DNA from: Streptomyces sp. C10-9-1
GTDB lineage: Bacteria; Actinomycetota; Actinomycetes; Streptomycetales; Streptomycetaceae
Assembly (NCBI RefSeq): GCF_024497955.1
Contig: NZ_JANHKP010000019.1
Span: 1 to 64,000 of the forward strand
Length of the DNA: 64,000 bases
Direction of reading: 5' to 3'
Position 1 is the first letter of the stretch, and every line of letters starts with the position of its first letter. Made by a program: the position numbers and the translations under genes. Below the pieces are notes generated by a model that was not told where the DNA came from, searched no databases, and worked only from the letters and a program-made list of their open reading frames with translations. Shown piece after piece: positions 32,003-34,328 of this stretch.

Positions 32003-32168
32003 GGAGGTTCCCCCTGGGTGGTGTCGGAGAGACCGCGCAAAGCTACCAGGGCCCCGCGGGTGCTTCCGGGGGCCCTCGCCGGATCTCCACAACCGGGCCG
32101 CGGGCGGGGGAGGAACGGGGAGCCTGCCGCGGGCCGGGCGGAGCGTGTAACCGGGGGAACACCCCCTG

Positions 32169-32178
32169 TGCACGTGCA
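32169..32178. promoter_or_regulatory. Palindrome TGCACGTGCA upstream of DUF397 gene
   Basis: A perfect 10-bp palindrome followed by further half-sites (GTGCAT at 32186-32191, TGCACATG at 32199). It lies about 100 bases upstream of the DUF397 start. An identical palindrome occurs at 33198-33207 in the promoter region of the XRE/ATPase pair, so it is a candidate operator of the XRE regulator. Confidence 0.5.
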
Positions 32179-32221
32179 TCGACCCGTGCATTGGCTTCTG
32201 CACATGGCATATGAACGCGGC

Positions 32222-32270: not shown

Positions 32271-32507
32271 GTGCACCACGTGTACAGCGGCATGGCGGCC
32301 ACGGAGCTTCAGGGGGTCGTCTGGCAGAAGAGCAGACACAGCAACTCCCAGGGCTCCTGCGTCGAGTTCGCCAAGCTGCCCGGCGGCGATGTGGCGATGC
32401 GCAACTCGCGGCACCCGGAAGGTCCCGCACTCGTGTACACGACGGCGGAGATAGAGGCGCTGCTCCTCGGGGCCAAGGACGGCGAGTTCGACCACCTGGT
32501 GGCCTGA
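32271..32507 (+). CDS. DUF397-domain protein (WhiJ-module small partner)
   Basis: A 78-residue protein with the DUF397 core: VVWQKSRHSNSQGSCVEFA, then DVAMRNSRHPEGPALVYT and a C-terminal EIEALLLGAKDGEFDHL helix. DUF397 proteins are the small partners of XRE/Scr1-type regulators in streptomycete development (WhiJ family) and may act as toxin-like or antirepressor factors. The GTG at 32271 has GGGAG eight bases upstream; a later ATG (codon 8) is possible. It converges on the ATPase gene of the same module. Confidence 0.88.
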   Translation: MHHVYSGMAATELQGVVWQKSRHSNSQGSCVEFAKLPGGDVAMRNSRHPEGPALVYTTAEIEALLLGAKDGEFDHLVA

Positions 32508-32577: not shown

Positions 32578-33093
32578 TCATCCCAGCCGGAAGAGCGCCC
32601 AGACGACCTTGCCCCGCAGCGCCCCGGCGAGCGGATGCCAGCCCCAGCCGTCGCTGAAGGACTCCACCAGCAGCAGCCCGCGCCCCGACTCGGCGGCGAA
32701 GTCCTCCTCCGCCTGCCGGGCGGTGGGGCCCTCGTCGCTGGGGTCGCGCACCGCGCACACCAGGCGCCCCGTCCAGCGCATCAGGTGCAGCCGCACCGGT
32801 GTCTCGCCGGCCTGCTCGTGTGCCTCGCACCCGGGCCGGGTCGGCCCGCCCTCGGGGGCCAGCGCGTGGCGCAGGGCGTTGGTGACGAGTTCGGAGACGA
32901 CCAGCGCCACGTCGTCGAAGCGGTGCGCGAGGTCCCACTGGCCGAGCGTCGCCCGGGTGAACTGCCGTGCGCCGCGCACCGCTTCGTGGCGGGGCGGCAG
33001 GGCGCAGGAGGCGGAGGTGGCCGCGGTCGAGGGGTCGGTCGGGTAGAGCCCCTGCCTTAACGGCGCGAGCATGGTCGATCGATTCGTCCCCAT
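32578..33093 (-). CDS. Anti-sigma-factor-like ATPase (HATPase_c, WhiJ/AbaA-type module) with a TTA codon
   Basis: A 171-residue GHKL-type ATP-binding protein of the RsbW/SpoIIAB class: helix ARQFTRATLGQWDLAHRFDD, N-box VALVVSELVTNALRH and G-box ESGRGLLLVESFSD. Such proteins accompany WhiJ-type regulators and DUF397 proteins in many copies per genome. Codon 12 is TTA (33058-33060), the rare leucine codon read by the bldA tRNA, so translation should depend on bldA and be delayed in development. The ATG at 33093 is taken; the alternative ATG at codon 8 would keep the TTA. Confidence 0.88.
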   Translation of the reverse strand: MGTNRSTMLAPLRQGLYPTDPSTAATSASCALPPRHEAVRGARQFTRATLGQWDLAHRFDDVALVVSELVTNALRHALAPEGGPTRPGCEAHEQAGETPVRLHLMRWTGRLVCAVRDPSDEGPTARQAEEDFAAESGRGLLLVESFSDGWGWHPLAGALRGKVVWALFRLG

Positions 33094-33416
33094 GCGAGGC
33101 ACTCCCGGGATTCGCTGCTGTGGCGCTACGACACGAACGAGCACGCAGGTGCGCGAGCACCATCGTTCCCAATGCGTAGGGCAGATGCAAGGGCAGATGC
33201 ACGTGCACGCGCCGGACCTGTCCGCGCCCGTGGCGGTTGCTGCTCATTTCTTCCACAGGCCGGTCGGGAGGCCCGGCGGCACTGTCTACTCTTTCCGTAA
33301 CCGCACGAGTACAGGCTGAAGCCTTTTGGTGGCAGAATCCGGCTCTTGGGTTTCGGGAGGCACTCGGCGACGATCGGACGCAGTGAAGTGGTGTACGGAT
33401 GGGGAGGGTTCGGGTC
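33094..33416. promoter_or_regulatory. Divergent regulatory region with TGCACGTGCA palindrome (33198-33207)
   Basis: This 323-base stretch separates the divergent ATPase and XRE genes. It holds the palindrome TGCACGTGCA at 33198-33207, preceded by two GCAGATGCA-type half-sites (33181-33189 and 33193-33200). The same palindrome precedes the DUF397 gene. The remainder is relatively AT-rich for this genome and must contain both promoters; I see no open reading frame with support. Confidence 0.5.
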
Positions 33417-34328
33417 GTGACGGCAGGAGTGTCAGGGGCGGCGTCGCCCGCATGGGGCGACCCCCGCGGCGAGGGGCCGGGTGGAGGGTCGGTCGTCCGG
33501 CGCATCCTGCTGGGGTCCCAGCTGCGGCGCCTGAGGGAGTCCCGGGGTATCACGCGGGAGGCGGCCGGGTACTCCATCCGCGCCTCCGAATCCAAGATCA
33601 GCCGCATGGAGTTGGGCCGGGTGAGCTTCAAGGCGCGCGACGTGGAGGACCTGCTCACCCTCTACGGCGTGGGCGACGAGGCGGAGCGCGCCTCGCTCCT
33701 CGGGCTCGCCAGGGAGGCCAACGTCGCCGGCTGGTGGCACAGCTACGGCGATGTGCTGCCGGGCTGGTTCCAGACCTACATCGGCCTGGAGGGCGCGGCC
33801 TCGGTGATCCGCATCTACGAGGTCCAGTTCGTGCACGGGCTGCTGCAGACCGAGTCCTACGCCCACGCGGTGGTGTCCCGCGGGATGCCCGGAGCCTCCA
33901 CGTCGGAGATCGACAAGCGGGTCGCCCTGCGGCTGGAGCGCCAGAAGGCGCTGGTGTCGGAGAACGCCCCCCTGCTGCACGTCGTCCTCGACGAGGCGGC
34001 GCTGCGCCGCCCCTACGGTGACCGGAGAGTGATGCAGGACCAGGTGAGGCACCTGATCCACGTGTCCGAGCAGTCCAACATCACGCTCCAGGTGATGCCC
34101 TTCGGATTCGGCGGGCACGCGGGCGAGAGCGGGGCGTTCACCCTGCTGAGCTTCCCCGAGTCCGATCTCTCCGACGTGGTCTACCTGGAGCAGCTGACCA
34201 GCGCCCTCTACCTCGACAAGCGCGAGGACGTCGCCCAGTACGCCCGGGTCATGGAGCGTCTGTGCGAGGACAGCCCGGATGCCGCCGGCACCCGCGACCT
34301 GCTCCGCGGTCTCCTTCAACTCGCCTGA
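33417..34328 (+). CDS. XRE-family regulator with Scr1/DUF5753 domain (WhiJ-like)
   Basis: A 303-residue regulator. Residues about 30-90 form an XRE helix-turn-helix (GSQLRRLRESRGITREAA...SESKISRMELGR). The rest is the DUF5753/Scr1-type domain (WHSYGDVLPGWFQTYIGLE, VHGLLQTESYAHAV, DEAALRRP, ITLQVMPFGFGGHAG). The GTG at 33417 is chosen because GGGGAGGG lies eight bases upstream; the ATG at 33399 has no site. It should bind DNA in the two flanking promoter regions and be modulated by the DUF397 protein (known for the family). Confidence 0.88.
   Translation: MTAGVSGAASPAWGDPRGEGPGGGSVVRRILLGSQLRRLRESRGITREAAGYSIRASESKISRMELGRVSFKARDVEDLLTLYGVGDEAERASLLGLAREANVAGWWHSYGDVLPGWFQTYIGLEGAASVIRIYEVQFVHGLLQTESYAHAVVSRGMPGASTSEIDKRVALRLERQKALVSENAPLLHVVLDEAALRRPYGDRRVMQDQVRHLIHVSEQSNITLQVMPFGFGGHAGESGAFTLLSFPESDLSDVVYLEQLTSALYLDKREDVAQYARVMERLCEDSPDAAGTRDLLRGLLQLA

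Follow-up and report, generated by a model that had tools for sequence, protein, structure and literature searches.

The Gene Cluster and Its TTA Codon

The stretch of DNA analysed here, referred to as the window, comprises 64,000 nucleotides of Streptomyces sp. C10-9-1 (positions 1 to 64,000 of contig NZ_JANHKP010000019.1). On its minus strand, at 32578–33093, it encodes an AbaA-like protein of 171 amino acids in which Pfam recognises the HATPase_c_2 domain at 45.1 bits against a cut-off of 27.4. Divergent from this ATPase gene, at 33399–34328 on the plus strand, lies the gene of a WhiJ-like XRE/DUF5753 regulator (Pfam HTH_31 and DUF5753), whose start is uncertain between an ATG at 33399 and a GTG at 33417. 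The regulator matches the NCBIfam model NF058600 with 388 bits against a cut-off of 350; as NCBIfam names it a member of the 'Sco1979 family', the model is apparently not confined to a single cluster. Convergent with the ATPase gene is the gene of a small BldB-like DUF397 protein (32271–32507, plus strand), and beyond the XRE gene Pfam finds an aldehyde dehydrogenase gene. The initial annotation had spoken of a WhiJ-type module, and the adjacency of ATPase, XRE/DUF5753 and DUF397 genes bears this out.

The neighbourhood was compared in 80 named loci, kept out of 97 that had been found by peptide patterns; these patterns include the N-terminus, so that the set is biased to conserved N-termini. 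The XRE and DUF397 genes adjoin the ATPase gene in 80/80 of these loci and the dehydrogenase gene is found in 78/80. The published sigma-E site located upstream of SCO3419 recurs close to where the dehydrogenase gene ends, exactly in 6/80 loci and with at most two mismatches in 17/80, and the published SCO3424 sigma-E site was met with two mismatches in 1/80; S. coelicolor A3(2) itself is absent from the set. As these two sites recur in orthologous loci, the XRE, ATPase and DUF397 genes of the window are identified as the orthologues of SCO3421, SCO3423 and SCO3424, respectively, and placed in the SCO3419–SCO3424 gene order. SCO3423 itself has been listed among the sigma-E sites detected solely under ethanol stress and among the regulators up-regulated in a glucose/agar comparison.

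The ATPase gene carries a TTA leucine codon at 33058–33060 (minus strand; the letters of the plus strand are TAA). Counted from the ATG at 33091–33093 it is codon 12, as had been annotated, and counted from the next in-frame ATG at 33070–33072 it is codon 5. It had also been noticed as the sole in-frame TTA in the predicted genes of the window, and the same result was obtained with a simple, admittedly crude gene caller: 55 genes with 18,863 codons and 2,087 leucine codons contain this single TTA. Streptomyces genomes have 51 to 505 TTA-bearing open reading frames, with a mean of 177 (PMC10327506), so that one such gene among about 55 is unsurprising in itself. What is above chance is the conservation of the TTA in orthologues rather than the presence of one TTA gene. 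The codon is not a general trait of HATPase_c_2 genes in this genome either: among the 30 of 63 genomic matches for which loci were obtained, in-frame TTA codons occur in just two open frames (10 of the 30 frames extend past the fetched DNA). The two frames, L290 and L299, are distinct from the ATPase gene of the window and lie on contigs C1 and C9.

The tRNA-Leu with anticodon UAA is the product of bldA, a tRNA described in the initial annotation as maturing late in development. The genome has 70 matches to the tRNA family, and ARAGORN typing, which left one match without a call, assigned tRNA-Leu(UAA) to just one of them. The genome thus has the tRNA gene expected for a bldA-dependent gene.

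Translation Start

Whether the TTA is translated, and at which position, depends on the start codon. An orthologue of the SCO3423 type was found in 198 of 199 genomes drawn evenly from the genus. In the search 196 genomes matched at 1e-30, and a looser search of 49 unlisted genomes matched each of them. The 198 orthologues consist of 30 top loci, 120 listed regions, 30 further loci and 18 deep regions; the remaining genome (G001, 79% complete) was left out as non-orthologous, its match having 41% identity and lacking the N-terminus. A further set of 261 sequences was obtained from 303 by removal of near-duplicates, which were dropped only among genes of equal length. The 198 orthologues, the 261 sequences and the 80 named loci overlap in species.

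At codon 1 (33091–33093) the 198 orthologues have ATG in 196 and TTG in two cases, and an SD-like stretch precedes it in 198/198. The Shine-Dalgarno sequence GGGAG (33102–33106, minus strand) ends 8 nt before codon 1 and is 90–100% conserved at each position in the 198 of 260 sequences used for this profile. The alternative is that translation begins at the ATG of codon 8 (33070–33072, minus strand), which would make the TTA codon 5. This is what the published numbering of a conserved TTA at nt 13–15 of FQ762_RS17645, an 'ATP-binding protein', implies (PMC10327506) if this gene is SCO3423, as we infer it to be. The simple gene caller likewise picked codon 8, and the position is ATG or GTG in 183/198 orthologues (ATG 158, GTG 25, CTG 6, ACG 3, TTG 2, GTT 2, GTA 1, GCC 1). 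In 13/198, on the other hand, it is CTG, ACG, GTT, GTA or GCC, which are not start-like, as opposed to a start codon with SD-like stretch at codon 1 in all 198. Furthermore, codons 2–7 change mostly at their third positions (25, 15 and 46 changes at positions 1, 2 and 3), as translated codons do. A start at codon 8 is therefore disfavoured and considered distinctly improbable, and even with it the TTA would be translated. Since the start codon and SD are present in 198/198 and codon 8 fails in 13, codon 1 is taken as the start and the TTA as codon 12.

Use of a start downstream of the TTA, which had been named as a finding that would speak against control by the codon, is without support. In the 261 sequences the stretch that separates the TTA from the ATPase domain, which begins near residue 33 according to Pfam, contains no column with mostly methionine, and at the valine columns 24 and 39 GTG is mixed with other valine codons.

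Conservation of the TTA Codon

A look at the codon in orthologues had been proposed, and its outcome is clear: a TTA is found at codons 12–15 in 179/198 genus orthologues (codon 12 in 169, codon 13 in 4, codon 14 in 2 and codon 15 in 4) and in 237/261 of the deduplicated sequences. Where the N-terminus contains insertions the TTA shifts together with its surrounding context to codons 13–15. The codon in the 19/198 orthologues lacking the TTA is TTG, CTG, CTA, TCA or GTC. No TTA was encountered from codon 17 onward in any of the 198 genus orthologues, and none from codon 21 onward across the 261 ATPase genes. Two orthologues of the set, L368 (G071) and L369 (G134), matched in two pieces (query 1–84 and 94–170), which suggests extra sequence in the middle of these proteins.

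The number of changes was estimated by fewest-changes counting on a single-gene FastTree tree calculated without the first 19 codons. The TTA state changed 17 times, and eleven chosen leucine columns of the protein core showed 23–63 codon changes; codon 9, a leucine inside a conserved block, changed just 12 times. That the TTA is a leftover rare codon with no regulatory meaning appears very improbable: several losses without visible compensation could be taken that way, but in about 90% of the species of the genus it has not drifted to another leucine codon, in high-GC genomes and in a gene otherwise free of TTA. As about one tenth of the orthologues lack the codon, bldA control would be non-essential. 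Transfer of the codon to a neighbouring gene was considered and rejected, as the XRE and DUF397 genes had a TTA in 0/80 named loci each, counted from the start of the tblastn match on and leaving the residues before it uncounted.

In a sister genus (g2, L382–L395) the position is TTA in 7/14 genomes and GCA in 7/14. Immediately after it TGGGAGGAGCTCTTCATG, a good SD with an ATG start, is present in 14/14, and translation seems to start past the TTA, which would thus precede the reading frame. The translated TTA may for this reason be a Streptomyces trait. A 2013 review records a TTA in the SCO3423 orthologue of K. setae (PMC4255298).

A Conserved Nucleotide Block around the Start Codon

The TTA lies within a block conserved at the nucleotide level, which extends from the SD to codon 16 (offsets −15 to +47; 33046–33108, minus strand) and includes the start codon. 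In a profile from 198 of 260 sequences the information per site, with a maximum of 2 bits, was 1.71–1.78 at −15 to +29, 1.45 at +30 to +44 and 1.2 at +45 to +74; upstream it was 0.67 at −30 to −16 and 0.17–0.36 beyond. Counted on the tree, sites at −15 to −1 changed 1–19 times and sites at −60 to −16 mostly 30–63 times. For conserved residues that can be encoded by four or six codons, the most frequent codon had an average share of 0.85 within codons 2–16 and of 0.71 from codon 20 on (11 versus 64 sites, Mann-Whitney p = 6e-4). Even rare codons are fixed: AAT4 accounts for 97% of Asn, GGA5 for 98% of Gly and CTT16 for 83% of Leu at those sites, and in codons 21 onward of the same gene AAT makes up 4.8% of Asn, GGA 9% of Gly and CTT 2% of Leu.

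As flanking codons are conserved at synonymous sites, part of the TTA conservation may reflect a wider regional constraint. In its strong form this alternative states that the TTA is kept mainly as a part of a conserved nucleic-acid element from the SD to about codon 16, which might be an initiation region, an mRNA structure or protein-binding DNA, with bldA dependence being secondary. The high information content from −15 to +29, where the spacer between SD and ATG is as fixed as the SD itself, and the dominance of AAT4, GGA5 and CTT16 are in line with it. Likewise, codons 2–7 and 9 with 9–19 changes on the tree are about as stable as codon 12 with 18, and GGATCGACC is kept in 8/19 of the genus orthologues without TTA. 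The region −15 to −1 is also more identical for the ATPase gene (0.98; 81/81 loci usable) than for the aldehyde dehydrogenase gene (0.53; 29/79) or the DUF397 gene (0.84; 30/81); this comparison has no figures for the XRE gene (3/81 usable) and a glyoxalase gene (found in one locus).

Against such an element stand codons 11 and 16, which lie within the block and, with 36 and 32 changes, are twice as variable as the TTA. A fixed start region is also seen in the DUF397 gene, with an identity of 0.94 at the third positions of codons 2–9 versus 0.98 in the ATPase gene. No second copy of the first 24 bases of the block was found in the genome within 3 mismatches, so that the block is not a repeated site. 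We regard an element of this kind as the main reason for the presence of the TTA as unlikely, yet as the most probable of the alternatives considered. At the DUF397 gene the conserved region (32271–32285) reads GTGCACcACGtGTac from the start codon on, as judged from the 30/81 usable loci.

Structure of the mRNA was considered in particular. In a fold that suits the main clade the SD pairs with codons 14–17, the region of the start codon pairs with codons 7–9 and the UUA is placed in a hairpin loop. Sixteen sequences folded singly gave z-scores between −1.67 and +1.91. Pair counts were made with the 248/261 sequences free of insertions (177 distinct). The share of paired positions was 91% versus 25–49% for slid pairings, a comparison in which relatedness is retained and the fold is itself that of a member of the set. 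In 500 column shuffles the observed values for percentage paired, for double changes and for double-changed pairs were never reached (27 versus 8.8 double-changed cells), the same two limits applying. Where bases had changed, however, the pairings P1, P2, P2b and P3 were retained in 31%, 43%, 25% and 6% of the changed cells, and that of the UUA hairpin in 2/36. An RNA fold around start codon and UUA is thus possible, but poorly supported.

A more elaborate proposal sees in the stretch between the SD and roughly codon 16 a dedicated cis-regulatory element which couples initiation with the passage of the UUA, for example because a ribosome held at the UUA alters access to the SD, or because this DNA or RNA is also bound by a protein. 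Combined with the operator-like motifs described below, it would make up a two-key switch, with transcription controlled via the WhiJ-type regulator and translation via bldA and the leader. This proposal is rather improbable. A description of the block was not found in the literature on the SCO3423 locus, to which the search for it was confined.

Operator-Like Motifs

Between the ATPase and XRE genes, at 33178–33208 on the minus strand, lies a candidate operator in which GTGCACGTGCATC precedes direct repeats of the TGCATCTGCC type (direct repeat D7). A second candidate is located upstream of the DUF397 gene at 32168–32191 on the plus strand and forms an inverted pair with the first (I1, 88%). 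The shorter motif TGCACGTGCA is present upstream of the ATPase gene in 261/261 sequences, as compared to 0–1 after shuffling, as well as in 198/198 orthologues of the genus sample and 14/14 genomes of the sister genus; upstream of the DUF397 gene it occurs in 80/80 named loci. The consensus on the ATPase side is GTGCACGTGCATCTGCCCTTGCATCTGC, and a longer form, TGCACGTGCATC, is found on the DUF397 side in 69/80 named loci. The exact 13-base GTGCACGTGCATC has two sites only in the genome, at 32168–32180 and 33196–33208. Allowing one mismatch yields 8 further sites, and as a reversed control pattern gives 17 within one mismatch, only the exact pair stands out.

In S. venezuelae, WhiJ9 has three intergenic direct repeats as its binding site (PMC10294661); given this similar placement, the XRE protein would be the natural candidate for binding the operator-like motif. 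The consensus of the WhiJ9 repeats is CGXXCTCAAC and differs from GTGCACGTGCATC and TGCATCTGCC of the window. The operator-like motif was not found described in the literature on the SCO3423 locus, and no text combining TGCACGTGCA with Streptomyces was found in the literature searched. Just past the operator-like motif a conserved CGCATTNGGAACCATGG-like motif (about 33160–33178, minus strand), aligned in 103/261 sequences, might be a promoter element.

The ATPase Protein

A structure model calculated from 34 sequences had a mean pLDDT of 66.9, with values below 50 for residues 1–18, 82–96 and 123–145. The best matches of this model in a fold search were SpoIIAB, UsfX and RsbW, with E values from 1e-6 to 2e-4. 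Residues E68, N72, D117, G137 and G139, which we take to be the ATP-binding residues of the GHKL (HATPase_c_2) fold, were invariant in the 34 sequences. The model thus predicts the GHKL fold as it occurs in anti-sigma kinases of the SpoIIAB/RsbW type, and with its moderate confidence it agrees with the earlier designation of the protein as an anti-sigma-like regulator. The NCBIfam RsbA model reached 37.5 bits, far below its cut-off of 210, no solved structure was found by sequence search at E 0.1, and a search of an anti-phage library gave zero matches.

Comparison with Known Systems

The TTA in this gene is already known. Table 2 of PMC4255298 gives SCO3423 the designation 'possible antisigma factor (AbaA-like)' and a TTA in 12/14 Streptomyces, which puts it, level with SCO4395, among the best conserved after adpA. 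The same paper states that the antisigma gene beside SCO3421 has the TTA nearly always within Streptomycineae and in none of the groups outside. As the SCO3423 described there lies beside the WhiJ paralogue SCO3421 and SCO3424, it is the same locus and the same TTA gene as in the window, and nothing essential differs from our results; the present analysis extends the comparison from 14 species to 198 orthologues, places the start at codon 1 and describes in addition the conserved block and the operator-like motif, two observations of moderate interest. The TTA of FQ762_RS17645 (PMC10327506) is very probably also the same codon; it is numbered there from codon 8, whereas conservation across species favours codon 1.

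A further parallel is adpA (SCO2792), which encodes a regulator gated by bldA and whose TTA is also conserved throughout Streptomyces (PMC4255298). Its TTA is located between two domains and its importance has been demonstrated by mutagenesis, while the TTA of the window is at codon 12 and is judged from sequence. AdpA is limited by the abundance of the bldA tRNA and in turn activates bldA (PMC4255298). In S. venezuelae the iosA-whiJ9-bldB9 and abaA6 loci are WhiJ/BldB/AbaA-type clusters like that of the window; the text on these clusters in PMC10294661 makes no mention of TTA. It does report an increase of the abaA paralogues in a bldB mutant and impaired sporulation upon overexpression of abaA6.

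Interpretation

Taken together, the TTA is a real, conserved and previously reported codon in the SCO3423 orthologue, and the predicted control of the ATPase by bldA is likely. The most probable explanation, in which we place considerable though not full confidence, is that it acts as a conserved bldA-dependent translation gate on an AbaA-like ATPase of the SpoIIAB/RsbW type, whose WhiJ-type cluster is the orthologue of SCO3421-SCO3423-SCO3424. For this gate we count the presence of the TTA in 179/198 and 237/261 sequences with fewer changes than the core leucine columns, the single tRNA-Leu(UAA), the lead of SpoIIAB, UsfX and RsbW in the fold search, TGCACGTGCA in 198/198 and the neighbouring genes free of TTA in 80 loci. 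Against it count the 19/198 orthologues without the TTA, with no substitute TTA seen in a neighbouring gene of the 80 named loci, the sister genus, in which the TTA occurs in 7/14 and seemingly before the start, the conservation of synonymous sites near the TTA as well, and the 12 changes of leucine codon 9.

Under the proposed gate, translation would initiate at codon 1 and the UUA at codon 12 would be passed efficiently only with abundant charged tRNA-Leu(UAA), so that little ATPase would be made before this tRNA becomes abundant. Transcription would probably be governed independently by the divergently encoded XRE regulator, via GTGCACGTGCATC-type operators next to the ATPase/XRE pair and to the DUF397 gene. 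The finished ATPase would act on a partner as an anti-sigma factor or switch kinase. The codon, its conservation, the orthology, the start codon, the tRNA gene, the synteny and the conserved motif are shown by the sequence comparisons; the bldA dependence, the binding partner of the motif and the biochemical role are predicted. Expression data for SCO3423 in a bldA mutant were not found in the literature on this gene. More generally, 0/19 products of regulatory TTA genes were detected by proteomics, and 21 mutated TTA genes (Li et al., cited in PMC2000904) gave no obvious phenotype (PMC2000904).

Few targets are known for the many WhiJ/AbaA/BldB clusters of Streptomyces (PMC4255298). The cluster described here is near-universal in the genus (198/199 genomes), and with its well-conserved TTA and a candidate operator with two exact cores it offers a small, testable case of bldA input to a WhiJ-type regulator.
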